Shown: positions 21,687 through 35,004 of the stretch, one piece after another
Layout: each line of letters starts with the position of its first letter
Numbering within the stretch: position 1 is the first letter of the stretch
DNA from: an uncultured Phycisphaerae bacterium
Lineage (GTDB): Bacteria > Planctomycetota > Phycisphaerae > Sedimentisphaerales > Anaerohalosphaeraceae
Assembly: GCA_937949545.1 (NCBI GenBank)
Contig: CALEDR010000013.1
Span: 1-42,980 of the forward strand
Direction of reading: 5' to 3'
DNA: 42,980 bases
The notes under the pieces: generated by a model
Databases searched by the model: none
What the model was told of the DNA's origin: nothing
The model's input: only the letters and a program-made list of their open reading frames with translations
Made by a program: the position numbers and the translations under genes

Positions 21687-23717
21687 TTGTTCGATTTGAA
21701 AAAGAATCGAGTGCGATATTTTTGTTTGCGAATTTTCCTTCGGTGTCGGAAATCCCTTCTTTCCCTGGCCTTTTTTATTTCGGGTTTTCTTGCGCTGATT
21801 TGGTTTCTCATTCGAGTTATCCCGAAACCCAGCCGAGCGGCCTATCCCTGTCAGCGGGCTGCCTTCCCGCTGGCGTCGTCGTTTGTGCTTTATGTAGCAG
21901 GGATGCTGGGGGCGTGGGCCAAATGGGCTTCTGCCAGACGTTTTTTGCGGCACAATCATTGGCTGGAAGGGGGGCTGCTGGTTGGCTTGGCCGGACTGAT
22001 TGTGTTTCTGACGTTGGGGCTGGACCCTCCATCCAATCAGGCGGCTTTTGTATCGCTCGATGGACCCAACCAGCCGATGGGAACGGCCGGCGGGATTTTT
22101 CCCGGCCGGGTGGTGTGGGTTCACGACCCCGCTGCTACTGCGTGGGATGGGGCCGGTTATGTCTGGTGGGACAATGAGCATACGAATCCGGCTGTTGTTG
22201 AATCGATGCTGTCCAGAGCCATTTGCTGGCTGACCGGAAAGCAGGATGACCGCAGTGCTTGGGATGCTTTGTTTCGCTATCACAACAGCAAACGGGGCAA
22301 AGGAAATGTAGGTTATACGGCAGGGGAACGAATCATTATCAAGCCCAATCATAACAATCAGTGGTCGCATCAGAGCCGATATAATTTTCCGGATACGCCT
22401 CCGGCTGTTTATGCGGCTTTGCTCAAGCAGCTGGTTTATCGAGCAGGGGTGGACCCGGCCTGCATTACGATCAGTGAGCCGTCGCGTTATATCGATGACA
22501 AAACCTATCATGCCTGCGTTTCGTTATTTCCTCAGATTCGATTTGAGGAAACCAATTATTTTAAACCGGAATACAATCCGGGTACAGAGGGGCGTACAAG
22601 AGCCGAACCCGTGCCGGGCATGATCATCTGGTTCTCCGCCAATCCCCAAACCGGACAGCCTATTGCCGATTATCCGTTGGCCCGGTCTTTTATAGAGGCA
22701 GACTATATCATTAACCTGGCCCGGATGCAGGGGCATGCCTTTGCAGGCGTTTCGCTGTGTGCCAAAAACTGGTATGGCTGTTTCGGCGTCAGCCCGGAAT
22801 ATGACAGTGCCATTCATTCCGGCAACGCGCTTCATTCGCTTCTGACGTATCCCGCTTACGCCGGCTACAGTCCCCTTGTCGATTTGATGGGGCACAGACA
22901 TTTGGGGCAGAAAACCCTCCTGTATATCCTCGATGCCCTGTGGGGATTTGAATATAACCAGGTCGGACTTCCGGCTAAATACACCATCCCTCCTTTTAAC
23001 GGGGACTATCCTTCGAGCCTTCTGGTCTCCCAGGACCCGGTTGCGCTGGATTCGGTCGCACTGGATTTTTTGGCGGCTCAGTTCAATCTGCCCGATATAC
23101 CCATCGACAGTTATCTGCACGAAGCCGCTTTGGCGGACAATCCGCCGTCGGGCACTTTTTATGACCCGGAGGCAGATGGCACCCGGATGTCTCGTCTGGG
23201 GGTTCATGAACATTGGGACAATCCGCTGAATAAACGGTATTCCCGCAATTTGGGTACCGGATCGGGAATCGAGCTGCTGTGTATCAACACGACTGTTTAC
23301 CCTTCACCTTCCAACACGTCCCTTCCGGCGGACTTGAACCAAGACGGCATAGTCGATTTATTGGACCTTCTTCGGATGACCTCTGCTTGGGGCTCTTTCC
23401 CCGGAACCGCCGGATGGGATTTTGTCTGTGATATTGCTCCGCCCGGGGGTGACGGACAAATCAGTCAGATTGATTTTTGTCTTTTGAGCAGCTTTTGGAT
23501 GCAGCAGAACTGCACCCAGACGAATTTGTGCGATTTCTCAAAAGACTGCCGCGTGAATATCGAAGACCTCGCTATTTTCGGAGATTCCTGGCTTTCTATC
23601 ATAGGCCAGTCTCATTGGAATGCGGACTGTGATACAGTCCCGGCGGAGGGAGACGGACTTATCAATCAGAAAGATTTTGCCGTATTCAGCACAAACTGGC
23701 TTTGGATAGGGTATTAG
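21687..23717 (+). CDS. Membrane-anchored DUF362 protein with dockerin-type C-terminus
   Basis: This 676-residue protein has three N-terminal hydrophobic segments (about 24-43, 61-77, 93-111). A DUF362-type domain follows (about 115-530), with DYIINLARMQGHAFAGVSLCAKNWYGCFG and VSQDPVALDSVALDFLA as recognisable family segments. Residues 546-676 hold four dockerin-like EF-hand repeats (DLNQDGIVDLLDLLRMTSAW, then GGDGQISQIDF, SKDCRVNIEDLAIF and EGDGLINQKDF). DUF362 proteins have no settled function; some bind Fe-S clusters, but no ferredoxin CxxCxxC set is visible here. Dockerin tails in Phycisphaerae are common on secreted proteins. TTG 21687 is supported by GGGAGGGGA 6 nt upstream. It lies between the two polysaccharide gene blocks. 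Confidence 0.8.
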   Translation: MFDLKKNRVRYFCLRIFLRCRKSLLSLAFFISGFLALIWFLIRVIPKPSRAAYPCQRAAFPLASSFVLYVAGMLGAWAKWASARRFLRHNHWLEGGLLVGLAGLIVFLTLGLDPPSNQAAFVSLDGPNQPMGTAGGIFPGRVVWVHDPAATAWDGAGYVWWDNEHTNPAVVESMLSRAICWLTGKQDDRSAWDALFRYHNSKRGKGNVGYTAGERIIIKPNHNNQWSHQSRYNFPDTPPAVYAALLKQLVYRAGVDPACITISEPSRYIDDKTYHACVSLFPQIRFEETNYFKPEYNPGTEGRTRAEPVPGMIIWFSANPQTGQPIADYPLARSFIEADYIINLARMQGHAFAGVSLCAKNWYGCFGVSPEYDSAIHSGNALHSLLTYPAYAGYSPLVDLMGHRHLGQKTLLYILDALWGFEYNQVGLPAKYTIPPFNGDYPSSLLVSQDPVALDSVALDFLAAQFNLPDIPIDSYLHEAALADNPPSGTFYDPEADGTRMSRLGVHEHWDNPLNKRYSRNLGTGSGIELLCINTTVYPSPSNTSLPADLNQDGIVDLLDLLRMTSAWGSFPGTAGWDFVCDIAPPGGDGQISQIDFCLLSSFWMQQNCTQTNLCDFSKDCRVNIEDLAIFGDSWLSIIGQSHWNADCDTVPAEGDGLINQKDFAVFSTNWLWIGY

Positions 23718-23931: not shown

Positions 23932-24927
23932 ATGGAACAGCAGACGATGAAAGTCTTAATCACCGGCGGCGCGGGGTTCATCGGCTCCCATCTGGCGGAG
24001 TCGCTTTTGAGAGGCGGACATACGGTTACCGTGATTGATGATTTAAGCACCGGGCGGCTTCGGAATATTCAGCATCTTCTGACAAATCCGTGTTTCCGGT
24101 TTGTTTTTGACTCTGTCCGCAATGAAAGCCTGATGAATCAGCTGGTTGAGTCTTGCGAGGTTATCGTGCATCTGGCGGCAGCCGTCGGCGTTCGGCTGAT
24201 TGTCGAGCGTCCGGTTCATACCATCGAAACCAACATCCATGGTACCGAAGTGGTCCTGGCGGCAGCCAACCGGTTCCACAGAAAGGTCCTTTTGGCTTCC
24301 ACTAGCGAGGTGTACGGCAAAAGTGAAGCCATTCCTTTTCGTGAGGACGATGATACTGTTCTGGGCAGCACACGGTTCAGCCGCTGGTCGTATGCATGCA
24401 GCAAGGCGATTGATGAATTCCTCGGATTGGCCTATTACCAACAGTACAATTTGCCGGTGATTATCGTACGGCTGTTCAATACCGTCGGCCCCCGTCAGAC
24501 AGGGCAATACGGAATGGTGATTCCCCGTTTTGTGGAGAGGGCTTTGCGGAATGAACCGCTGGAAATCTACGGCAGCGGAAAACAAACGCGATGCTTTTGC
24601 TGTGTGTTTGATGTCGTCCGGGCCCTGCAGGACCTGATAAACTGTCCGGAAGCCTGCGGACAGGTCTTCAATCTCGGTTCCAATGAAGAAATCAGTATCG
24701 AGAATCTTGCCGACCGCATCATTGCGATGACGCAAAGCCGCAGCCGAAAGGTTTACCGCGACTTTGAACAAGTCTTTGGACGCCCCTTTGATGATATGGT
24801 CCGACGGGTGCCCTGTCTGGAACGGATCCGTCAGGTTATCCATTTTCAGCCGACCTATACGTTAGACCAGACGCTTTTTTTGATTATTGAGGATATGAAA
24901 AAACAGCTTGCGTCTGCTGAAAGATAG
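23932..24927 (+). CDS. NAD-dependent nucleotide-sugar epimerase/dehydratase (extended SDR)
   Basis: This 331-residue protein is an extended short-chain dehydrogenase of the GalE/UDP-glucuronate decarboxylase type. TGGAGFIGS at 11-19 is the NAD-binding loop, Asp36-Asp37 of VIDDLST should bind the ribose, LASTSEVYG supplies the catalytic Ser/Thr near 124, and Tyr154-x3-Lys158 (YACSK) is the catalytic pair. The RLFNTVGPRQ segment is typical of UDP-sugar enzymes. It would make a UDP-sugar for glycan assembly; epimerisation, decarboxylation or dehydration cannot be told apart here. It begins the second polysaccharide block and ends 3 bp before the exosortase fusion. Confidence 0.88.
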   Translation: MEQQTMKVLITGGAGFIGSHLAESLLRGGHTVTVIDDLSTGRLRNIQHLLTNPCFRFVFDSVRNESLMNQLVESCEVIVHLAAAVGVRLIVERPVHTIETNIHGTEVVLAAANRFHRKVLLASTSEVYGKSEAIPFREDDDTVLGSTRFSRWSYACSKAIDEFLGLAYYQQYNLPVIIVRLFNTVGPRQTGQYGMVIPRFVERALRNEPLEIYGSGKQTRCFCCVFDVVRALQDLINCPEACGQVFNLGSNEEISIENLADRIIAMTQSRSRKVYRDFEQVFGRPFDDMVRRVPCLERIRQVIHFQPTYTLDQTLFLIIEDMKKQLASAER

Positions 24928-24930
24928 ACA

Positions 24931-26898
24931 ATGTCTTCAAGTGTTCCTTTAAAAGACTGCAAAGCCCTGATTTTGGTTGGTGAACCGGATTTCGGCCGAT
25001 GCCCGCTGGCCAGCCGGCTGCACCATGCCTTTTGGTCTTTTGGGGGCAAGCCGGTCTTTTTGCGCCTCGTGGAAATTCTGGCTGAACAGGGGTTGCAGCG
25101 TGTTGAAGTCTGCAGTTCTGAAAGGAATCGCCCCTTCCTTGAATCATTGGTTTTTCCGGATAGGGTAAATGTCCATTTGCGATTTGAGACATTCCCACGA
25201 GGTACCGCCGGCAATATTCGAGATGCACTGGCTGCAGAATCTCCTGAAACCATCCTTTTGGTTTTTAACGGGGCGATGCTGGCCCCTCCGCCGCTGAAAG
25301 ACATCCTTGAGGAACATCAAAACAAGCAAGGGGTTCTGACTGTCTTTTTCCAGCCGACTGATGAATCCGAACCGGTTCACAAAGATGCGGAAGTCTATGT
25401 CTGCTGTTCGGATATCATTCGCCAGATTCCCCCGGAGGGATACTTTGATTTAAAAGAGAATTTGGTGCCTGCTCTTGTGAAAAAAGGGCTCCCTGTCGCT
25501 TGCGGGGTTCTCAAAAAACCCACAGAGACTTATCGGACGTGGATGGAGTATGTGGAGGCCGCAGGCCGGTATTTGAGCTTTTTGGAGGAAACCGGCGCTG
25601 GGCTTGCAGGATTTTCCCGAACTGCTGTCGACGGATTGTGGGTAGGACAGAATGTTCAAATCGATCCGACGGTTCGCACGGCCGGACCGGTGTTTATTGG
25701 AAACAACTCCATTGTCAAAGAGGGCTGTATTCTTTTGGGACCTTTGATGGTCGAGTCTGATGGGTGGATAGGCCCTCATGCGGTAATCAGTTTTTCTGTC
25801 ATTGGGGCCGGAACGACTGTGGGGGCTCAGTGCCGTCTTGATTGCTGTATGACGGATACAGGAGCGGTGCTTCCGTCCGGCACAGAGGGGTCTGAACAAC
25901 TGTTTGTCCTTTCCAGGGGCAAGCTATCTTCCTTTACAAGGAAGCTTCGAACCCGGCTGGTACAGCGTCAAAGCCTCGCGCAGGTTTCGTCTTTGTCATC
26001 CTGGCTGGCTCAGCCGAGAAAAAAATTCGAGGCTTTTTTGGCACTCGGAGTTCTGCTGATTGTTCTGTTTGCCGTCCATTGGAATCTCACCCTAATAGAC
26101 CTTTGGCAGGTGTGGATGCTCAGCGATGAATACTCCAGCGGCATTCTTGTACCGCTTTTGGCCGCGTATGTAATTTGGGACCGCAGAAAAATCCTGCTGG
26201 ATTGTCCGATACGTCCCTATCCGCCGGCTTTTTGGGCTCTTTTGTTCGTCCAGATACTCCGATTCGGAGCTCTTTTGATGGGGTCTGCAAGTCTTGAGCG
26301 TCTGTGTTTTCTCTTAACCATCGGCGGCCTAGTGTGGTTGATTTTAGGCGGACAGTGTTTTAAGAAGATATTGCCGGTCTGGATGTATCTGTATTTGATG
26401 TTTCCTCTGCCCAAATCTGTGGAATGGACGATTACACCGCCTTTGCAGAAATGGGCAACCGTTTCCGCTGTTTTTTGCCTGGAAGCCTTAGGGTTTAATG
26501 TGATTCGAGATGGAAATATTATTAATATTAATGGTACTCTTGTTGCGGTGGCGGAGGCTTGCAACGGTCTGCGAATGCTGACGGCCTTTTTCGTTGTAAG
26601 CGGTTTCGTGGTTTTGATATGCAAATGTCCCCTTTGGCAAAAGGTTGTAATCTTTCTTTCGAGTGTGCCGATAGCATTAATATGCAACACCATCCGTCTG
26701 GTTCTGACGTCAATCGCCTTTTTGTTTTTGGATGGGCAAATATGGGAAAAGATATTCCATGATTACGGCGGTCTGGCCATGATGCCGCTGGCCCTGCTTT
26801 TGACGGTCCTGGAGTTGCGGTTTTTATCGAAATTGTTTATCGATTCGTCGGAGCAAACAATTCCCAAGGTTGTTTGCAGACAGAAATCCTCGGTATGA
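24931..26898 (+). CDS. Exosortase fused to N-terminal nucleotidyltransferase-like/hexapeptide module
   Basis: This 655-residue single reading frame has three parts. Residues 10-220 follow a sugar-1-phosphate nucleotidyltransferase fold (GGKPVFLRLVEILAEQG, RGTAGNIRDAL, LLVFNGAML, then a WMEYVEAAGRYL end). The glycine-rich GGxGTRLxP loop is replaced by VGEPDFGRCPLA and the metal-binding NGD by Asn113-Gly114-Ala115, so catalysis is unlikely. Residues 235-310 form hexapeptide turns (VGQNVQIDPTV, GPVFIGNNSIVKEGC). After a linker, about eight membrane helices (365-635) make an exosortase with Cys544 in EACNGLR, Arg589 in NTIR and His610 in FHDYGG, the expected catalytic residues. Exosortases cleave and anchor PEP-CTERM proteins outside the membrane. 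EpsI is encoded separately at 3247. It is followed 15 bp later by the BY-kinase. Confidence 0.88.
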   Translation: MSSSVPLKDCKALILVGEPDFGRCPLASRLHHAFWSFGGKPVFLRLVEILAEQGLQRVEVCSSERNRPFLESLVFPDRVNVHLRFETFPRGTAGNIRDALAAESPETILLVFNGAMLAPPPLKDILEEHQNKQGVLTVFFQPTDESEPVHKDAEVYVCCSDIIRQIPPEGYFDLKENLVPALVKKGLPVACGVLKKPTETYRTWMEYVEAAGRYLSFLEETGAGLAGFSRTAVDGLWVGQNVQIDPTVRTAGPVFIGNNSIVKEGCILLGPLMVESDGWIGPHAVISFSVIGAGTTVGAQCRLDCCMTDTGAVLPSGTEGSEQLFVLSRGKLSSFTRKLRTRLVQRQSLAQVSSLSSWLAQPRKKFEAFLALGVLLIVLFAVHWNLTLIDLWQVWMLSDEYSSGILVPLLAAYVIWDRRKILLDCPIRPYPPAFWALLFVQILRFGALLMGSASLERLCFLLTIGGLVWLILGGQCFKKILPVWMYLYLMFPLPKSVEWTITPPLQKWATVSAVFCLEALGFNVIRDGNIININGTLVAVAEACNGLRMLTAFFVVSGFVVLICKCPLWQKVVIFLSSVPIALICNTIRLVLTSIAFLFLDGQIWEKIFHDYGGLAMMPLALLLTVLELRFLSKLFIDSSEQTIPKVVCRQKSSV

Positions 26899-26913
26899 CA
26901 GAAATGGAGTCGT

Positions 26914-29184
26914 ATGGACAATTCGGACATGAAGGAAAGTATTGTTCCGACGGCGGAACTGGTCGAGTACCGCCCTCAGCCGACGGAGGAACTGCCGCAT
27001 TCGGAGATTGACCTTTGGGGATTGCTCCGGCGGCGATGGTGGGTGATTCTTTTGCTGACGGTGCTGGTCTGGGGTATTGGATTTCCGACGGTATTTTTCC
27101 TGATGCCCAAGCAGTACCGAACGACGGCACTGGTGGAAGTGGCTCCGATTATTCCAGAGATTATATATCGTGATCGCGATTCCGACCAGCCGCTGCCCAA
27201 CTATGAAGGATTCAAAAACACGCAGGCAATGCTGATGAACAGCGATAAAGTCATTCGCCGGGTTGCCGAAGAAGTCCAAAATCTCAATCTTTCTTTTTTT
27301 GCTCAGGGGAGAGATGCCTATACGGGGCTTCGTCAGATGTTTGAGCAGGGGATTATTGAGATTGAACCGGACCGTGGGTCCTATCTGATTACCCTGAGCA
27401 TGACCACTCCGGCCGCACAGGCGGAAGAAGCCCGAACGCTGATTAACTTGCTTCTCCGCAATTATATGGCGGTGGTTGTGGAAGACCTGCGGGATCGAGA
27501 AAATACGCGTCTGAACAACCTCCAGAGCGAGCGAAAGCAGCTGACGCAGAAACTCGAAGCCCAGCAGGAAACCATCCGTCAGCTGGTGGAAGAATACGGA
27601 ACGGGGGAATTGACGGCTCTCCAGCAGATGCATTACGAACGGCTGGCCAGTCTTCAGAGAGAGCTGACCAATACGGAAATCCAACTGCTGGCGCTGGAAG
27701 CCCAGATTCAGGCGGCCGAACAGAGCGGCCAGGAGGCCCTGCCGTCGGACTTCGTTCAGCAGCGTTCTCAGATTGTCCAGAACGACCCGATTCTGCGGGC
27801 TCTTCAGGAGGATATTCGCCGGTATGAACAAACCCTTCTGGTCAGCCGCCAGACGATGCAGCCGAATAATCCGATTTTGGTTCAGCAGGAGCAGGTTTTT
27901 GAAACTCTGAAAAACCGCTATGAAAAGCGGCAGCAGGAAGTTCTGGATGAGTTCAATGCGGCCTTTGAGGAGCGCCGCATGAGCGGCCGGCAGCTGCAGC
28001 TGGCTCAACTGAAAGCTCAGCGTTCTCAGCTGGCCTCGCTGATGCAGCATCTTCAGGAGAAACTGCAGCAGCAGGATGCGGAGACGATCCGAATCGGCCG
28101 CAAACAGCTGCTGATAGAGGACCTCAAGGAGCAGATTCAGCAAAGCAAAGAGCAGATGCAGGAGGTTGATCGCAAAATCAAAGAGCTGATGATTGAGAGC
28201 AAACGGCCGGCCCGAATTTCCGTCGCTGATGAGGCCTTCAGCGTCTCCGCTCCGGGCAAGCGAAAGAAAACGGCGGCTGCTGTGGGCTTCGGAGGACTCC
28301 TTTTCGGCCTGCTGACGGCTCTGCTTATTGACCGGCTGGACCGGCGGATTCACCATCCTCAGGAAGTCGTCAAGCGGATACAGGTGAGGATTCTGGGCAC
28401 AACGACCGACCCGCATTCTATTCAGCGAAATCTTCTGGGCCGGCAGCTGAACGACGATTATCAGACAATTCGTGCCAATCTGGGACTTTTGGACGGCTCG
28501 AACGGCTCCAAAATGATTCTGGTGACCAGCCCGGGAGTGCAGGACGGCAAAACCACGTTTTGTGTCAATCTGGCTGCTTCCTTTGCCAACTCCGGCCAAA
28601 AAACACTCCTGATTGACGCGGATTTGCGAAAACCGGACGTGGTGGAAGTGCTGAATCTGCCCCGCGCCCTTCGCGGATTTCAGGATTATCTGTTCGGCAA
28701 AAAGCTTGAAGAGTGTTTGTACCAGCATTCCAAACCCAACTTTTTCATTCTTGCGTCCGATTTTCGGAATAGTGCGGATGCGCTCGATTTGCTGGCTCAT
28801 CCGCAAAGCGGTGAACGGCTCCGTACCCTGCGGGATTCTTTCGGCATCATTTTGATTGATTCCCCGCCGGTTCTGGCGTTTGCAGATGCACTGGTGCTGT
28901 CTCGGTATGCCGATGCCGTCATTCTGACTACGTTTTTGGGCCGGACCTCGCAGCCGGATATCCAGGAGGCCTTGTCCAGGCTGCGGCAGGTGGGGGCCAA
29001 GGTCATCGGAACGGTGGTCAATAATGTGAAAGCCGAGCAGGGCTACCGCTCCTACGGCTACGGCTATGCATACGGCCAGAGGGGCCGAAAGCACCGCAAG
29101 AAAAACCCCGACTTGTTTTTGACGGCTTCTCAGGAGCCCTCTGATCCGCAGACATTTCCTCCGAATCCGAAGCAGCCGTCCTGA
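26914..29184 (+). CDS. Wzz-type chain-length regulator fused to BY-kinase
   Basis: This 756-residue protein combines a Wzz domain and a bacterial tyrosine autokinase. Membrane helices lie near 43-63 and 453-472, with a long extracytoplasmic coiled coil between (about 195-430, many Gln/Glu/Leu heptads). The kinase domain has Walker A SPGVQDGKT (539-547), Walker A' LIDADLRK (566-573) and Walker B IILIDSPP (645-652). Its tail carries a tyrosine cluster, Tyr711, 714, 716, 718 and 720, the usual autophosphorylation zone. It would set glycan chain length and control polymerase and export. GGAG is 5 nt before the ATG. It lies between the two genes with fused nucleotidyltransferase-like modules. Confidence 0.92.
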   Translation: MDNSDMKESIVPTAELVEYRPQPTEELPHSEIDLWGLLRRRWWVILLLTVLVWGIGFPTVFFLMPKQYRTTALVEVAPIIPEIIYRDRDSDQPLPNYEGFKNTQAMLMNSDKVIRRVAEEVQNLNLSFFAQGRDAYTGLRQMFEQGIIEIEPDRGSYLITLSMTTPAAQAEEARTLINLLLRNYMAVVVEDLRDRENTRLNNLQSERKQLTQKLEAQQETIRQLVEEYGTGELTALQQMHYERLASLQRELTNTEIQLLALEAQIQAAEQSGQEALPSDFVQQRSQIVQNDPILRALQEDIRRYEQTLLVSRQTMQPNNPILVQQEQVFETLKNRYEKRQQEVLDEFNAAFEERRMSGRQLQLAQLKAQRSQLASLMQHLQEKLQQQDAETIRIGRKQLLIEDLKEQIQQSKEQMQEVDRKIKELMIESKRPARISVADEAFSVSAPGKRKKTAAAVGFGGLLFGLLTALLIDRLDRRIHHPQEVVKRIQVRILGTTTDPHSIQRNLLGRQLNDDYQTIRANLGLLDGSNGSKMILVTSPGVQDGKTTFCVNLAASFANSGQKTLLIDADLRKPDVVEVLNLPRALRGFQDYLFGKKLEECLYQHSKPNFFILASDFRNSADALDLLAHPQSGERLRTLRDSFGIILIDSPPVLAFADALVLSRYADAVILTTFLGRTSQPDIQEALSRLRQVGAKVIGTVVNNVKAEQGYRSYGYGYAYGQRGRKHRKKNPDLFLTASQEPSDPQTFPPNPKQPS

Positions 29185-29208
29185 ACAAGCGAAGAGGGGA
29201 GAGATTTC

Positions 29209-30810
29209 ATGCAGGTTTTTTGGTTTGGGTCTGAACATTTTTGCAGTTCATCCGCCTCTTTGGGGCCGCAGCTGTTAACGGCGTATCCGGCCAATCGGCT
29301 CCTGCTGGATATGCTGAAGGCCGGCGCTCTGCAGAAGCCCTGCCGATTTTGGCTGCCGGAATCAGTCCGAATCCAGGACCTGGAGCGGTGTAAAGGAGTC
29401 TTTTTTTATCCTCCCGACGGCGTCAGTAATTCGATACGTCTTTCTGTACCCAAAACGGACTGGGCGATTCTTTCGAACGGAGCTGTCTTTACGGAAGTGG
29501 ACAGGACGTATCTTGAAGATGTTCTTTCCTCCCTGGATTGGGACATAGCGGTTTTCCGCATTGACCCTTCGCTGGACGCCAGCCGGGAGCAGGTTCGTCT
29601 GACAAGAGACGGACGCATTGTCGGTTTTCGCCGATACTATCAGCCCGCATTCGAACCGGACTTTCCCTCGGCGGATTGGCCGGATTTCCTCTGCTGCAGG
29701 GCTGAAAAATTCGAGAAACTTTTGAGTGCTTTACTCAGAAAACCGACCGCTTCTTTTGCTGAATATGCCGAATTGGTCGGCGGCCGAATTCTTCGGTTTC
29801 GTCTCGGCGGCAGGCGGTTCGACCTTTTTTCCAAAACCGGATTGGCGGCTCTGCTTCGATTCAGCCAAACCTGCCGTTCGGAATCCGCGGCAAAGACAGA
29901 CGAATCGGAAAGGACGGCCCTCAAAGGGATCATTCATGTCGGCAGGGAGGTTCGTTTGGGGCAGGGGGCTGTGATTGCGGCTCCGGCAATTCTCTGTGAC
30001 CGGGCTGAGGTCGGCGAGGGCGCCGTTCTTCAGGGGGTTCTGCTGGGACCATCTGTTTGTGTGCCGCCCGGTCAGCAGGTCCGCCACAGCGGATTGTGGA
30101 ATCAGACAACCCCGGACTCTTGGGCCGGACATTTGAATCTGTGTTCAGACGGATTGTGCCGCTCAGAGAAACCCTTCCGCCAATGGCCGCTCTTTTCTTA
30201 TCCCCGATTTGGCAAACGCCTGGTGGATATCCTGATTTCCGTTCTTGTGCTGGGGTTGTTTTTGCCGTTTTTCCCGCTGATTGCTCTGGCGGTCAAACTG
30301 ACCTCGCCGGGCCCTGTCTTCTTTCGAGCACGCCGTCAGGGCCTTCACGGCAGAGAGTTTTCCTGTTTGAAGTTTCGGACGATGATTGTCGGGGCCGAAT
30401 CCTTTCAGGACCGGCTTCGGATGGTCAATCAGGTGGACGGTCCGCAGTTTAAGATGGAAGATGACCCGCGAACCAGCCCCGTCGGCAAATTTCTGCGGGA
30501 TACATGCATCGATGAACTGCCGCAGTTTTTGAATGTTCTGCTCGGCCAAATGAGTGTGGTAGGACCGCGTCCCTCTCCGGAAAATGAAAATGAATATTGT
30601 CCCCCGTGGCGTCAGGCTCGTCTTTCCGTTCGGCCGGGAATTACCGGCCTCTGGCAGGTCAGCCGGACTCGCCGGCCGGGTCGCGATTTTCAGGAATGGA
30701 TTTATTATGATATGGAATATGTCCGGAAATTGTCGCTGGGCATGGACCTGAAGATTTGTCTGTTGACCGCACGCAAGCTGATTCTTTCTTTTTTGGACCA
30801 GTTTGGATAA
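29209..30810 (+). CDS. Initiating sugar transferase fused to N-terminal nucleotidyltransferase-like/hexapeptide module
   Basis: This is a 533-residue protein. The C-terminal 200 residues (332-533) are a bacterial sugar transferase (WbaP/WcaJ-type polyprenyl-phosphate hexose-1-phosphate transferase): a hydrophobic segment at 339-363, [14 protein letters not shown], the catalytic DELPQ (Asp435-Glu436), [10 protein letters not shown] and [11 protein letters not shown]. The N-terminal 235 residues resemble the later part of a nucleotidyltransferase fold ([47 protein letters not shown]) but lack the opening glycine loop and have Asn90-Gly91-Ala92 in place of NGD. Hexapeptide turns follow (237-285). 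Normal family members are 200-480 residues without this module. It starts repeat-unit synthesis on undecaprenyl phosphate. Confidence 0.88.
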
Positions 30811-30846: not shown

Positions 30847-33800
30847 ATGCAGAAGAGATTCGGTCGAATCAACTGGGCATTTTTGGTAGTAGTGCTCTTT
30901 GCCCTGGCAGCCGGAACACTGACCGTCGGGGGATTGTGGTACTGGAACAAACACCTGCGGGCCCAGCGGGGGCTGGAACGGGGTCTGGCAGCCTATGAGA
31001 AGAAGGATTGGGACGTAGCGGCCGTCTATCTCGGGCAGTATCTGGCGGCGATTCAGCCCAAACAGGATACGGCAATCCTGATCAAATATGCAGAGGCCCA
31101 GATGAATCGCCGTCCTCTGACGAAGGGATACATTGAGCAGGCCCTGCGGGCCTATCATCAGATTCTTCGTCTGGAGGACAACCCGGATGTGTCCCGCCGG
31201 CTGATTGAATTTTACGTCCGCACGGACCCTGCAGAGGCCCAGCGGATGGCCGAGGCCTTTCTGGAACGGCAGGACAATCCCGAAATTGCCTGTTATGCCG
31301 CACAGGCCATGATGCAGCGAGGTCAGATGATTCCCGCCCGGCAAAAACTCCAGCAGGTTCTGGAGCGGTATCCGGACTGCCTGCAGGCTTACCTGCTCAT
31401 GGTCCGTCTGGCCCAGCAAGACCCAGACCTTTCCGACAAAACCCCTCTGGAATGGCTGAATGCCGCCGTGGAAGCTAATTCAAGCGAGCCGTCGGCTTAT
31501 TTGTATCGGGCCCAGTATCATCTTCAAAACCTGCGGACAGATGAAGCTCAGGCCGATATTGAAAAGGCGAAAACACTGCCGCTCCAAACCCGTCAGCAAA
31601 AGCTTCAACTGGCTTCCGTATACCTGACAGCCGGACGGCTGGAGGAGGCAGAGCGGCTGTTGAGCAGCTTGCAGTCTGAACAGGCCGATGACCTGTCGGT
31701 CTGGCTTTTGTGGGCACAATGGGCCGTTCGAAGCGGCCGCACGGAGGGAATGGTTCGGGTGGCTCAGGAGGGTATGGCTGCACTTCAGCCGGACCCGTAT
31801 GATTTTCTGATAACCGCTGCAGAACTTTTCATTCAGGCACGCCGCTGGGACCAGGCGGAAAGCATTATCCGACTGATGACAGAACGAAAGGACGAATCGG
31901 AGACCATCGCGTATCTGCAGGGGCTTCTGGCACAGACAAAAGGGGATTGGCCGACTGCTTTGACGATTTGGCGGAAATTGTCAGCGTCTTCCACCGCCCC
32001 GGATGCCTCCATTCGTCTGGCTCAAGCTCTCATGGAAGCGGGAGACCCCCTGGCGGCTGTCCAGCAGCTTCGCGGGCTTCTGCTGCGATTTCCCGAACAT
32101 GCGGAGGCCCACGCTCTGCTGGCGCGGTGGTCTCTGAAGGAAGGTCGATTAGTCGAGGCGGCTGACCATATCCAGAAGGCTTTGCGGAAACAGCCGGACA
32201 ATCAGGACTATCGCAGAATTTGGCTGACCGTTCGGTTTCGACAGATGCAGACATCGCAGAATCCCCCGGATCAGGCTGAACAGGCCCGACTGATTCAGGA
32301 GAGTCAGGAAATGGCCCGCCGAGACCCTTCTTTCCTGGCTGAACAAATCAGTTTCTGGATTGAAACCGGACGACTGGAGGAAGCTCAAGCACAATTAGAG
32401 CATCTGAAAAAACAGGAAGGCCCGACAATACGGGTTCGACTTCTGGAAAGTGATCTTTTCCGCCGGCAGGGGCAGTACAGGCAGGCTCGGCAGATTTTGG
32501 AAGAGCTCCGCCGGGATTATCCAGCTTCGCTCGAACCGATCCAAAAGTGGGTCGTTTTTGCTGTCCAAACCGGCGAATATGAACAGGCGGCAGCGTTTCT
32601 GGATGCCATCTCTCCGGAATCCTTCTCTGCCGAACAGCAAAAAGTACTGGCTGTCTGGCGGGCGGAGGTGCTTTTCCTGAAAGGGCAGGTACAGGAAGCG
32701 GCGGCGGTTCTTGCCGATTTGGCCAAACAGTATCCGGCGGACATTCCGCTTCGCCGGCGTCTGCTCGAATGGACGCGCCGAACGGCAGAGCCGGAGCAGC
32801 TCCGCAGATGGATCGAAGACATCAAAAATGCGGAAGGGGAACAGGGACGGCAGTGGCGGTATGAGCAGGCCCGTCTGCTCTTTGAACGAGGCCAGATTCG
32901 GCGGGATTATCCGCAAATTGTCTCACTTCTGAACGCGGTGCTCCGCAGTTATCCGGAGGATATAGACAGCCGAATCCTGCTGGCTTCTGTTTATGAGGCC
33001 TCCGGCAATCTGGCGCTGGCGGTCCAGGAATATCAGAACGCTCTGGCCAAAGACATGGACAACCTCGAATTGATTGCTTCAGCGGTAGCGGCTATGTATC
33101 GAGCCCAGGAATACCGGGCAGCGGAGATGGTTCTTCAGCAGGCGGCCCGACGCGGCCTGCGGGATCCGCGGCTGACGCATCTGGAGGTTCAGCGGCTCCT
33201 TCAGCAGGGGCGATTCGGGACTGCCGCGGAAATTCTTCAGGATATGATTGCAAAAAATCCTAATGACCAGAATCTCAAATTGTCGCTGGCCCTGATGCAT
33301 CTTTATCAAAATCAGCTCTCGGAAGCCGAGCAGATTCTTCATTTGCTTCAGGAAGCGGAACCTTTTTCGCTGCCGGTTATTGCGGCTCGTGTGGAACTGG
33401 CGATGCGCCGGAAAGAGACCGACCAGGCCGTTCAGATTTGTGATGCGGCCCTGACGGCCCGGCCCTCTGAGCCCCGTTTGTATGCGCTGCGGGCGATGGT
33501 TCGGACCCAAATCGGTCTGACGGAACAAGCGCAGGGGGATATCAAAACAATGCTGCGCCTTTCGGAATCATCCCGGGACAGTTTTCTGCTTGCCGCAGAT
33601 TTGTTTATGAATCTGAATCAGACGGATGCTGCCGTCGAAACCATGGAAGAAGCCCTTCGCCTGTATCCGGAGGACCTGGCGGTTCTTCGCAAAGCGGTCT
33701 TAATCTATGCTCGGGCTCCTCAGCAAAGAAAGGTCATCGAGGCTCTTGTCGAAAAATATCTGGCGGCAGAACCGAAGGATCCTACCGTCCTGCTGCTGAA

Positions 33801-35004
33801 GGCCCAGATGCTCTTGTCGGAAAACACAGCCGCCGCGGCGGATGAAGGCGAGAGAATCCTGCACAGTCTGCTGAATGACTACCCGCGAATCGAGGGGGGA
33901 TGGGCAGCCCTGACGGAATGGTACATGCGAAACGGACAGACCGGTCGGGCCCTGGACAGTCTTCTGAAAGGGTTGGAATTCTTCCCGGAAAGCAGCATCC
34001 TGTTGCTGATGAAAGCCCGTCTGGAGGCGATGCGCGGCGGACATTTGGCCCTGCCGACTCTGCAGGATTTGTACAAACGGTTCCCGAACGATGAGCGGGT
34101 GGCGGCCTTGTATGCAGAACTGTGCATTCGAACCGGACGTTTTCAGGAGGCCGAAAGCGTTCTGGAATCCCGCAGAGAAACACAGGAGAAGGGGAATTCT
34201 GCTTTTCGGATACTTACCCTCCATTTTCTGCATCAAACCGGGCGTCGCGAACAGGCCTGGCAGCTGTTCGAAAAAGAATTGAAAGAAAGTCCTGAGCCGA
34301 GCCATGTTTTCTACCGCTGGGCTGTCCTTTTGATTAAAGACCAACAGCGTACCGCCCTGCAAGAGCTGCTGGAAAAGTATTCGGAGTATTCTCCGGCCTG
34401 CCTGGATGCTGCGGCTCGTATTTGTCTTCAGATGGGATTGGATGAAGACCCCAAAGGACGCGAAACCGTTGCTGAATGCCTGCGTTTGCTTCTGGAACGC
34501 CGGCCGAATCACCCTCAGCTGATGCTGTCTCTGGCAAAACTATATCATTTTTGGCAGCAGTACAAACCTGCAGAACAGCTCTATCGGGCCCTTCTGACGC
34601 AGAACAGTCTGACGGAAGAGACAGACCGGGCCGCGGCGATGAATAACCTGGCCTGGATTCTGTTTTCTCAGAATAAGCAGCTGCAGGAAGCGCTTCAGTG
34701 GGCCGATAAGGGCTTGATGATTCAGCCCCAAAATGCAGATTTACTGGATACCCGAGGCGAAATCTTTTTTGAGATGGGACAGTTTGCAAAAGCCCGGGAA
34801 GACTTTGAGCAATCTCTGAAAAATGCCCCGCCTTATTCACCGGAGCGAGTCAAAACCGGATATCGGCTGGTCAAAACGTTTTTGGCGATGAATGAAAAAC
34901 AACAAGCCGCAAGGTGGGCCCCGGAGGTATGGCGATGGAATCAGAGCAATCCGGTTTTGAATAAAGACCAAATGGAGGAACTGCAGGATCTTTTCGGACA
35001 GTAA
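30847..35004 (+). CDS. Giant membrane-anchored TPR protein, PrsT-like
   Basis: This 1385-residue protein has a single N-terminal membrane helix (about 10-33) and then almost nothing but tetratricopeptide repeats, seen as recurring A/G-L-...-Y-P-.. helical pairs. Clear late examples are NNLAWILFSQNKQLQEALQ and LDTRGEIFFEMGQFAKAREDF. It would stand in the periplasm as a scaffold for EPS or PEP-CTERM machinery. A TPR lipoprotein called PrsT is typical of PEP-CTERM loci; this protein is longer and has no lipobox, so it is an analogue or distant homologue. AGGGAG lies 7 nt before the ATG. It closes the second plus-strand block and directly precedes the PEP-CTERM-type substrate gene. Confidence 0.85.
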   Translation: MQKRFGRINWAFLVVVLFALAAGTLTVGGLWYWNKHLRAQRGLERGLAAYEKKDWDVAAVYLGQYLAAIQPKQDTAILIKYAEAQMNRRPLTKGYIEQALRAYHQILRLEDNPDVSRRLIEFYVRTDPAEAQRMAEAFLERQDNPEIACYAAQAMMQRGQMIPARQKLQQVLERYPDCLQAYLLMVRLAQQDPDLSDKTPLEWLNAAVEANSSEPSAYLYRAQYHLQNLRTDEAQADIEKAKTLPLQTRQQKLQLASVYLTAGRLEEAERLLSSLQSEQADDLSVWLLWAQWAVRSGRTEGMVRVAQEGMAALQPDPYDFLITAAELFIQARRWDQAESIIRLMTERKDESETIAYLQGLLAQTKGDWPTALTIWRKLSASSTAPDASIRLAQALMEAGDPLAAVQQLRGLLLRFPEHAEAHALLARWSLKEGRLVEAADHIQKALRKQPDNQDYRRIWLTVRFRQMQTSQNPPDQAEQARLIQESQEMARRDPSFLAEQISFWIETGRLEEAQAQLEHLKKQEGPTIRVRLLESDLFRRQGQYRQARQILEELRRDYPASLEPIQKWVVFAVQTGEYEQAAAFLDAISPESFSAEQQKVLAVWRAEVLFLKGQVQEAAAVLADLAKQYPADIPLRRRLLEWTRRTAEPEQLRRWIEDIKNAEGEQGRQWRYEQARLLFERGQIRRDYPQIVSLLNAVLRSYPEDIDSRILLASVYEASGNLALAVQEYQNALAKDMDNLELIASAVAAMYRAQEYRAAEMVLQQAARRGLRDPRLTHLEVQRLLQQGRFGTAAEILQDMIAKNPNDQNLKLSLALMHLYQNQLSEAEQILHLLQEAEPFSLPVIAARVELAMRRKETDQAVQICDAALTARPSEPRLYALRAMVRTQIGLTEQAQGDIKTMLRLSESSRDSFLLAADLFMNLNQTDAAVETMEEALRLYPEDLAVLRKAVLIYARAPQQRKVIEALVEKYLAAEPKDPTVLLLKAQMLLSENTAAAADEGERILHSLLNDYPRIEGGWAALTEWYMRNGQTGRALDSLLKGLEFFPESSILLLMKARLEAMRGGHLALPTLQDLYKRFPNDERVAALYAELCIRTGRFQEAESVLESRRETQEKGNSAFRILTLHFLHQTGRREQAWQLFEKELKESPEPSHVFYRWAVLLIKDQQRTALQELLEKYSEYSPACLDAAARICLQMGLDEDPKGRETVAECLRLLLERRPNHPQLMLSLAKLYHFWQQYKPAEQLYRALLTQNSLTEETDRAAAMNNLAWILFSQNKQLQEALQWADKGLMIQPQNADLLDTRGEIFFEMGQFAKAREDFEQSLKNAPPYSPERVKTGYRLVKTFLAMNEKQQAARWAPEVWRWNQSNPVLNKDQMEELQDLFGQ

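Follow-up and report, generated by a model that had tools for sequence, protein, structure and literature searches.

Apparently dead pyrophosphorylase-like modules that mostly occur as a pair on an exosortase and an initiating sugar transferase in Sedimentisphaerales

The DNA considered here, hereafter the window, is a stretch of 42,980 nucleotides from an uncultured Phycisphaerae bacterium of the order Sedimentisphaerales (contig CALEDR010000013.1 of assembly GCA_937949545.1). It carries an exosortase gene (24931-26898) and an initiating sugar transferase gene (29209-30810) whose products each place an N-terminal module before a membrane enzyme. The original prediction held that both proteins carry the same nucleotidyltransferase-like module, marked by Asn-Gly-Ala (NGA), and that a shared adapter or sensor might couple glycan initiation, chain length and protein sorting through these proteins and the kinase encoded between them. 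Both open reading frames (ORFs) and their coordinates were confirmed, and much of the layout was as described: NGA is literally present at residues 113-115 of the exosortase and 90-92 of the transferase, a hexapeptide part precedes each membrane enzyme (Hexapep is found at E <=0.1 in all 57 and 55 members of the two families; the window's proteins also match Exosortase_EpsH and Bac_transf, respectively), and the sole gene in between encodes a Wzz/BY-kinase protein of 756 residues. The features of the three genes are as follows.

24931..25614, + strand: pseudo-nucleotidyltransferase core of the exosortase N-terminal module, residues 1-228 (Pfam NTP_transferase at 25-148; AlphaFold2 model with the GMPPA/GMPPB fold)
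25267..25275, + strand: NGA, residues 113-115, at the place of the metal-binding Asp of active enzymes, where N109-S110-D111 of VTC1 aligns
25624..25905, + strand: left-handed beta-helix of the exosortase N-terminal module, residues 232-325 (Hexapep matches; strands in the model)
26044..26850, + strand: exosortase domain, residues 372-640, with Cys544, Arg589 and His610 (PF09721, 165.9 bits)
26914..29184, + strand: Wzz-type chain-length protein with BY-kinase domain and Tyr-rich tail (Wzz, AAA_31 and TIGR01007 matches; tail read from the sequence)
29209..29892, + strand: degenerate nucleotidyltransferase-like core of the transferase N-terminal module, residues 1-228 (AlphaFold2 model with the GMPPA/GMPPB fold)
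29476..29484, + strand: NGA, residues 90-92, read from the sequence; the third place is Arg in 42/55 relatives
29911..30108, + strand: left-handed beta-helix of the transferase N-terminal module, residues 235-300 (Hexapep in 55/55 at E <=0.1; strands in the model)
30181..30804, + strand: monotopic phosphoglycosyl transferase (monoPGT) domain, residues 325-532, with Asp435-Glu436 (PF02397, 201 bits; WbaP and PglC as top structural matches)

The membrane enzymes look active from their sequences. The exosortase belongs to PF09721 (165.9 bits against a cut-off of 25.7), and the Cys-Arg-His set, which we take to be catalytic, is intact in 57/57 relatives. Among the 25 of 34 NCBIfam families listed, no exosortase subtype reaches its cut-off (XrtD 134.5 vs 400, XrtA 123.5 vs 208, other subtypes lower); the models that do are two general ones, 8TM_EpsH (122.2 vs 105.55) and exo_archaeo (56.1 vs 23). 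The sugar transferase is a monoPGT by PF02397 (Bac_transf, 201 vs 27 bits), and its Asp-Glu dyad, presumably catalytic, is present in 55/55 relatives. It is not a large monoPGT of the WbaP type, given that it has no PF13727 match and that its N-terminus models as a core followed by a beta-helix. The kinase belongs to TIGR01007 (125.3 bits vs 108.05).

The module of the exosortase is the easier of the two to recognize. Its matches to NTP_transferase (PF00483, 23.3 vs 21.2 bits) and Hexapep (31.3 vs 27) exceed the Pfam cut-offs, with Exosortase_EpsH following, and 48/57 exosortase-type proteins match NTP_transferase at E <=0.1. The AlphaFold2 model of the protein has a mean predicted local distance difference test score (pLDDT) of 87.6, with the core mostly above 90, and when the module is compared with solved structures it matches GMPPA/GMPPB with Z 30.6 over 315 aligned residues at 2.8 A. 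The closest PDB sequence is tlr0611 (E 1.7e-30); GDP-mannose pyrophosphorylases and eIF2B epsilon come next.

Equivalences with the plant enzyme VTC1 were taken from a HMMER alignment and from the active-site description in PMC9168903. Under this alignment, the metal-binding Asp (place 115) is lost in 56/57 exosortase-side modules and kept in one, the equivalent of Lys23 is kept in 1/57, and the phosphate loop GGxGTR has become GxxDFGR. The residues aligned with VTC1 residues 80 and 85, which contact guanine (PMC9168903), are kept as E86 (51/57) and G91 (57/57); residue 80 of VTC1 is printed as Asp in the accessible text of that paper, whereas by our count it is Glu in the PDB sequence. Ten positions of the exosortase-side module are invariant among the 57 sequences, nine of them in the core. 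These nine comprise G91 and G94 of the base-binding stretch together with W35, H129, G170, D173, K175, E176 and Y207, and D173, K175 and E176 lie near the catalytic Glu-Lys of VTC1. The tenth, G270, sits in the beta-helix along with several near-invariant positions.

The transferase-side module is assigned by fold only, as NTP_transferase (PF00483) is matched by 0/55 of these modules at E <=0.1, and the Hexapep match of the window's transferase (20.6 bits) falls below the Pfam cut-off of 27. Its AlphaFold2 model has a mean pLDDT of 81.5, and residues 1-310 match GMPPA/GMPPB with Z 14.1 over 269 aligned residues at 6.0 A. All structures listed after the first three matches have this fold (GMPP, AGPase, eIF2B and similar chains), and Foldseek agrees, giving E values from 4.4e-9 to 6.6e-7 for such chains among the 50 matches listed. 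Residue D205 of this module is kept in 51/55 relatives.

In predicted structures both modules match GMPPA/GMPPB, eIF2B and AGPase chains, and we take them to be long-diverged versions of one fold and architecture, a GDP-mannose-pyrophosphorylase-like core followed by a left-handed beta-helix. The trait conserved in both is loss of the catalytic Asp, which is retained in 1/57 exosortase-side and 0/55 transferase-side modules, so that neither family looks like an active sugar nucleotidyltransferase. The NGA motif, proposed originally as the tie between the two proteins, had to be given up as a shared signature. It occurs in only 2/57 exosortases and 2/55 transferases, and its presence in both proteins of the window is incidental: the exosortase family has [PS]A[SAG] at this place in 29/57 members (PAS 12, PAA 5, SAS 5, SAG 4), and the transferase family has NGR in 27/55 and DGR in 8. 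Nor does the kinase appear to take part through a module of its own, as had been envisaged, since a Pfam profile scan found no pseudo-nucleotidyltransferase module on it.

The two modules appear to have decayed differently. By predicted secondary structure, the exosortase-side module (residues 136-160) lacks a strand pair that the transferase-side module (residues 113-164) keeps, and the latter lacks the helix after the GTAG stretch.

The distribution of the modules points to a strong link between them. A scan of a genome collection with the exosortase-side profile returned 87 relatives, and the best 80 loci were kept; these are mostly from planctomycete metagenome-assembled genomes (MAGs), many named Sedimentisphaerales or Phycisphaerae. 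Both fusions are present in 48 loci, a fused exosortase only in 8, a fused transferase only in 6 and neither in 18. The genes for exosortase, BY-kinase and transferase follow one another in that sequence on one strand in 48/48 of the loci with both fusions. In seven of the 8 exosortase-only loci the fused exosortase lies within 3 kb of the end of the locus, and the 18 ‘neither’ loci, defined by limits of length and score, include several that are truncated and others that are variants with a free module or a direct fusion. Fusion to an exosortase was observed in 56 named loci, and several families of the order have it.

Searches with single sequences through 161 genomes of the window's order, which overlap with the named loci and are not an independent sample, found both modules in 81 genomes, the exosortase-side module only in 5, the transferase-side module only in 11 and neither in 64; the exosortase-side tally rests on the matches listed. 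The corresponding Fisher value of 8e-27 should not be read as a probability, the genomes being related. Six of the 11 transferase-only genomes were inspected, and in none is the partner clearly absent: five have a contig that stops short of the place of the module (L240, L246, L247, L248, L249), and in G133 (L245) the exosortase-side module is present after all. The exosortase-only genomes G047, G124 and G130 were judged, from coordinates alone, to end near a contig end. A PF02397 transferase of some kind is found in 148/161 genomes, including, by our tally, 55/64 of those with neither module, and the modules are therefore not a mere marker for owning such an enzyme. Among 294 genomes drawn from the phylum, 11 have an exosortase-module match of at least 100 bits and 7 have a transferase-module match of at least 100 bits, all among those 11. 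Within the genomes searched, presence and absence of the two modules mostly coincide, and the expectation that they would not be distributed independently was borne out within the order.

Some of these loci have peculiarities of their own. In L079:2-4153 (L014 is on the same contig, G012) the exosortase, its N-terminal module and the BY-kinase share one frame of 1384 residues, either a real fusion or a lost stop. The trio is also carried by L064 and L106, deposited as Pelotomaculum and Candidatus Kuenenia MAGs; L106 is a contig of G128, which is placed in the window's order, and its deposited name thus seems incorrect. The L064 contig may have been misassigned. The kinase ORF of L076 (G031), from 9974, is short at 451 residues.

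Loci that depart from the common arrangement reveal which enzyme the exosortase-type module follows. In L072, L107, L115 and L218 (L107 and L220 come from one genome), a free exosortase-type module of 343-381 residues is followed by the kinase and a module-bearing transferase, and no exosortase was found in the locus. L127 resembles these loci, but in its transferase the match to the module profile is confined to the helix. Direct fusion of the exosortase-type module to the transferase is seen in L129, L131 and L133 (Nitrospirae/Nitrospira) and in L137 (a deltaproteobacterial MAG), again with no exosortase found in the locus, and the two of these that were checked, L133 and L137, lie in Wzx/Wzy-type operons. 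Among the phylum regions inspected, the module is fused to the exosortase in L202, L203, L206 and L210, fused to the transferase in L207 and L208, and free beside a transferase in L205; other planctomycetes (L138-L141, L209, L216, L217) encode it as an ORF of its own adjoining the exosortase. Conversely, in L243 and L244 an exosortase of this kind (63% and 72% identity to the L073 protein) occurs with the kinase but without the N-terminal module, and their genomes, G134 and G142, gave no transferase-module match in the search of 161 genomes. Modules without exosortases on one side and exosortases without modules on the other amount to a double dissociation. Taken together with the direct fusions, this means that the steadier link of the exosortase-type module is with the initiating transferase, the exosortase being a frequent third party. 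Contrary to the original prediction, the exosortase is thus not supported as an obligatory member of the system: the module stays with the transferase in exosortase-free loci and is joined directly to it in Nitrospira, the deltaproteobacterial MAG and some planctomycetes.

In an acidobacterial MAG (L136:239-1396), a free exosortase-type module is followed by an ORF for a transferase with a module-like N-terminus of its own.

Co-divergence gives moderate support for pairing of the modules. Trees were compared over 48 sequence sets, comprising the window and 47 loci (one of the 48 loci, with a split kinase ORF, was left out). Distances of the two modules correlate with r 0.88, compared with 0.80 and 0.77 for each module and the enzyme on its own chain, and the module-module value is the higher one in 95% and 99.6% of 500 bootstraps. 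The partial correlation of the two modules, controlling for five other regions, is 0.42 (38 sets) or 0.50 (26 sets), and in such comparisons each module is the highest or second-highest partner of the other.

Several known systems resemble parts of this arrangement. The GMPPA/GMPPB complex (7d72, 7d73) is the top match of this fold for both modules, and it shares with them, as does plant VTC1, the core with its left-handed beta-helix and the pairing of a dead paralogue with another copy. GMPPA is a non-catalytic paralogue that binds GDP-mannose and GMPPB (PMC11228364), and the beta-helix is the main contact between subunits in this fold (PMC9168903). Here, in contrast, neither partner looks active and each is joined to a membrane enzyme, and no pyrophosphorylase activity would be expected. 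Fold and dead site agree with a GMPPA-like regulatory pseudoenzyme, which would be predicted to bind a nucleotide sugar and a partner subunit without catalysis. The exosortase-side sequence is also similar to the UTP-glucose-1-phosphate uridylyltransferase tlr0611 (8x7s), including the stretch around GYFDIKE, although the latter is a uridylyltransferase by its record name and the module lacks the metal-binding Asp.

On the transferase side, the catalytic domain is similar to that of the large monoPGT WbaP (8t53; Z 18.8, 160 residues aligned, 36% identity), which likewise has an N-terminal accessory domain. In WbaP this region is a four-helix membrane bundle and a domain of unknown function (PF13727), responsive to uridine monophosphate (UMP), that supports the dimer (PMC10942596), whereas the present transferase has a putative pseudo-pyrophosphorylase in their place. 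Fusions of sugar-modifying, regulatory and other functional domains to monoPGTs have been reported (PMC10942596, PMC12802240), although the accessible text of these reports mentions neither a pseudo-pyrophosphorylase nor an exosortase with a partner module. Control of an initiating transferase by a protein partner has a precedent in Myxococcus, where EpsW acts on EpsZ at the first step of exopolysaccharide synthesis (PMC12802240), the partner there being a response regulator rather than a pseudo-pyrophosphorylase. The neighbourhood itself was described in 2006, with exosortase genes lying near Wzz and PF02397 sugar-transferase genes in PEP-CTERM/EpsH loci (Haft 2006, PMC1569441), and the present locus adds a PrsT-like TPR protein, with PEP-CTERM matches elsewhere in the same assembly's genome as given below. 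The accessible text of that paper describes exosortase fusions to CAAX-protease-like domains and no module in common with the transferase. A search of the freely licensed literature in PubMed Central, mostly of listings and abstracts, turned up no account of an exosortase with a pyrophosphorylase-like module or of the two modules together. The description of the system as new thus has to be narrowed to the paired pseudoenzyme modules, as clustering of exosortase with exopolysaccharide genes and other domain fusions to initiating transferases were already known.

We propose that a matched pair of dead GDP-mannose-pyrophosphorylase-like domains links these membrane enzymes to each other and acts as a nucleotide sensor, and we hold this best of the available explanations at a little below an even chance. 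By analogy with GMPPA, the WbaP N-terminal domain and the partner-switched transferase, the two modules would bind each other, most likely through their beta-helices as GMPPA and GMPPB do, and would hold the exosortase beside the transferase that puts the initial sugar on the lipid carrier. In an active relative, guanine is held by a Glu and a Gly-Thr-Ala-Gly stretch, both of which are retained in the exosortase-side module. This module may sense a nucleotide or nucleotide sugar, and the sensing might gate chain initiation, the same job that has been proposed for the unrelated nucleotide-sensing N-terminal domain of WbaP. Most of the order's loci carry the fusion to the exosortase, and there protein sorting and chain initiation would come under one regulated assembly. 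What survives of the coupling idea in the original prediction is the shared pseudo-nucleotidyltransferase architecture and the strong link between the modules (48/48 loci; 81/5/11/64 genomes), shorn of the NGA tie, the part of the kinase and the obligatory exosortase.

A number of observations weigh against this proposal. Contact between the modules and the identity of a ligand are both our inference. The comparison of whole modules by profile gives P 1e-21, a match carried by the repeat helix; the beta-helix match (P 1e-25) was not used as proof of homology, and hexapeptide repeats are expected to match one another generically. When the beta-helix is left out, the cores score 18.9 (P 0.047), within the range of 11-23 found for unrelated families (one cluster that mixed exosortases and transferases through direct fusion proteins, and scored very high, was excluded from that range), and homology of the two cores is not proven by sequence alone. 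The claim that one module sits on both proteins therefore stands on fold and architecture in predicted structures and gains no significant support from core-only profiles, and the transferase model itself superposes with a high root-mean-square deviation and low TM-scores (0.2-0.4 by Foldseek, among the matches listed). The exosortase-side module is about 30 residues shorter than VTC1 between two aligned stretches, and its sugar binding may have been lost with them. The TPR neighbour, which also evolves fast, correlates with the modules at 0.87 and 0.91, which means that much of the raw co-divergence reflects a shared fast clock and weakens raw tree correlation as proof of contact. The intact-looking L076 has a fused exosortase and no transferase found within 9 kb, and is a real exception to the pairing. 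Finally, L243 extends 600 bases past its kinase gene, completeness is 84% for G134 and 78% for G142, and G134 may contain a weak exosortase-side module, as one of its two matches is absent from those listed.

It is also possible, though we consider it somewhat less likely, that the modules serve the sugar transferase only, as a two-part nucleotide sensor, and that the exosortase is a passive carrier acquired through gene neighbourhood, with sorting unregulated. The loci with a module and no exosortase (L072, L107, L115, L218 and also L127), the fusions to the transferase outside the order and the UMP response of the unrelated WbaP domain (PMC10942596) all favour such a role. However, a passive passenger joined by an easily lost linker might be expected to separate more often than is seen across 56 named loci and several families. 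Less probable still is that the modules are structural scaffolds, beta-helix dimerization domains that replace those of large transferases and build oligomers with no ligand. Such a role would suit the loss of catalytic residues in both modules, the use of the beta-helix as the oligomer interface in this fold (PMC9168903), and the presence of the invariant G270 and several near-invariant positions in the helix, but it leaves nine of ten invariant exosortase-side positions in the core, including G91, G94, D173, K175 and E176.

Two further alternatives seem to us improbable. The modules might be unrelated acquisitions that look alike since the fold is common and stay together through operon inheritance alone, which would account for core profiles that have no significant match. 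Agreement of the predicted structures over the whole length speaks against this, as does L244, where neither module was found and the exosortase and kinase genes remain. We give slightly less credence even to a retained or altered enzymatic activity, such as a different transfer on a nucleotide sugar made by the operon; invariance of D173, K175 and E176 (57/57) and conservation of D205 in the transferase module (51/55) would be explained, but the exosortase-side metal-binding Asp and Lys are gone and the phosphate loop is rewritten.

If a paired, nucleotide-sensing assembly of the two enzymes exists, it would be of interest in two respects. To our knowledge, there is still no explanation for why exosortase and exopolysaccharide genes travel together, and a physical tie between exosortase and transferase would offer a direct reason that can be tested with two soluble domains. 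Such an assembly would also provide initiating transferases with a second kind of nucleotide-sensing regulatory domain, one that, like GMPPA, derives from an inactivated biosynthetic enzyme. More speculatively, and in our view less likely than not, dead sugar-nucleotide enzymes might be a general plug-in coupling unit of surface-glycan initiation, whose complementary halves, one on an exosortase or free and one on a transferase, assemble to sense nucleotides and give the go-ahead for transfer of the first sugar. In the order studied here, the complex would also hold the exosortase at that site. Sorted proteins and glycan would then be made in step.

Two further genes adjoin the trio directly.

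23932..24927, + strand: NAD-dependent epimerase/dehydratase, 3 bases upstream of the exosortase gene (PF16363, PF01370)
30847..35004, + strand: TPR protein resembling PrsT of PEP-CTERM/exopolysaccharide loci (TIGR02917, 278.6 bits, below the cut-off of 312.2)

Gaps of 15, 24 and 36 bases separate exosortase, kinase, transferase and PrsT-like TPR genes in turn, and with the epimerase gene ending just before the exosortase gene, the whole reads as one operon. Two genes upstream of the exosortase, at 21687-23714 of the window, lies a gene for a DUF362 protein with dockerin-type repeats. Of 37 PEP-CTERM matches listed for this genome, 31 pass the family cut-off, compared with none in 14 control genomes, and the genome encodes two exosortases; a sorting system is thus present. 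The second exosortase (G000:C34:11754-12539), at 337 residues, is without the N-terminal module.

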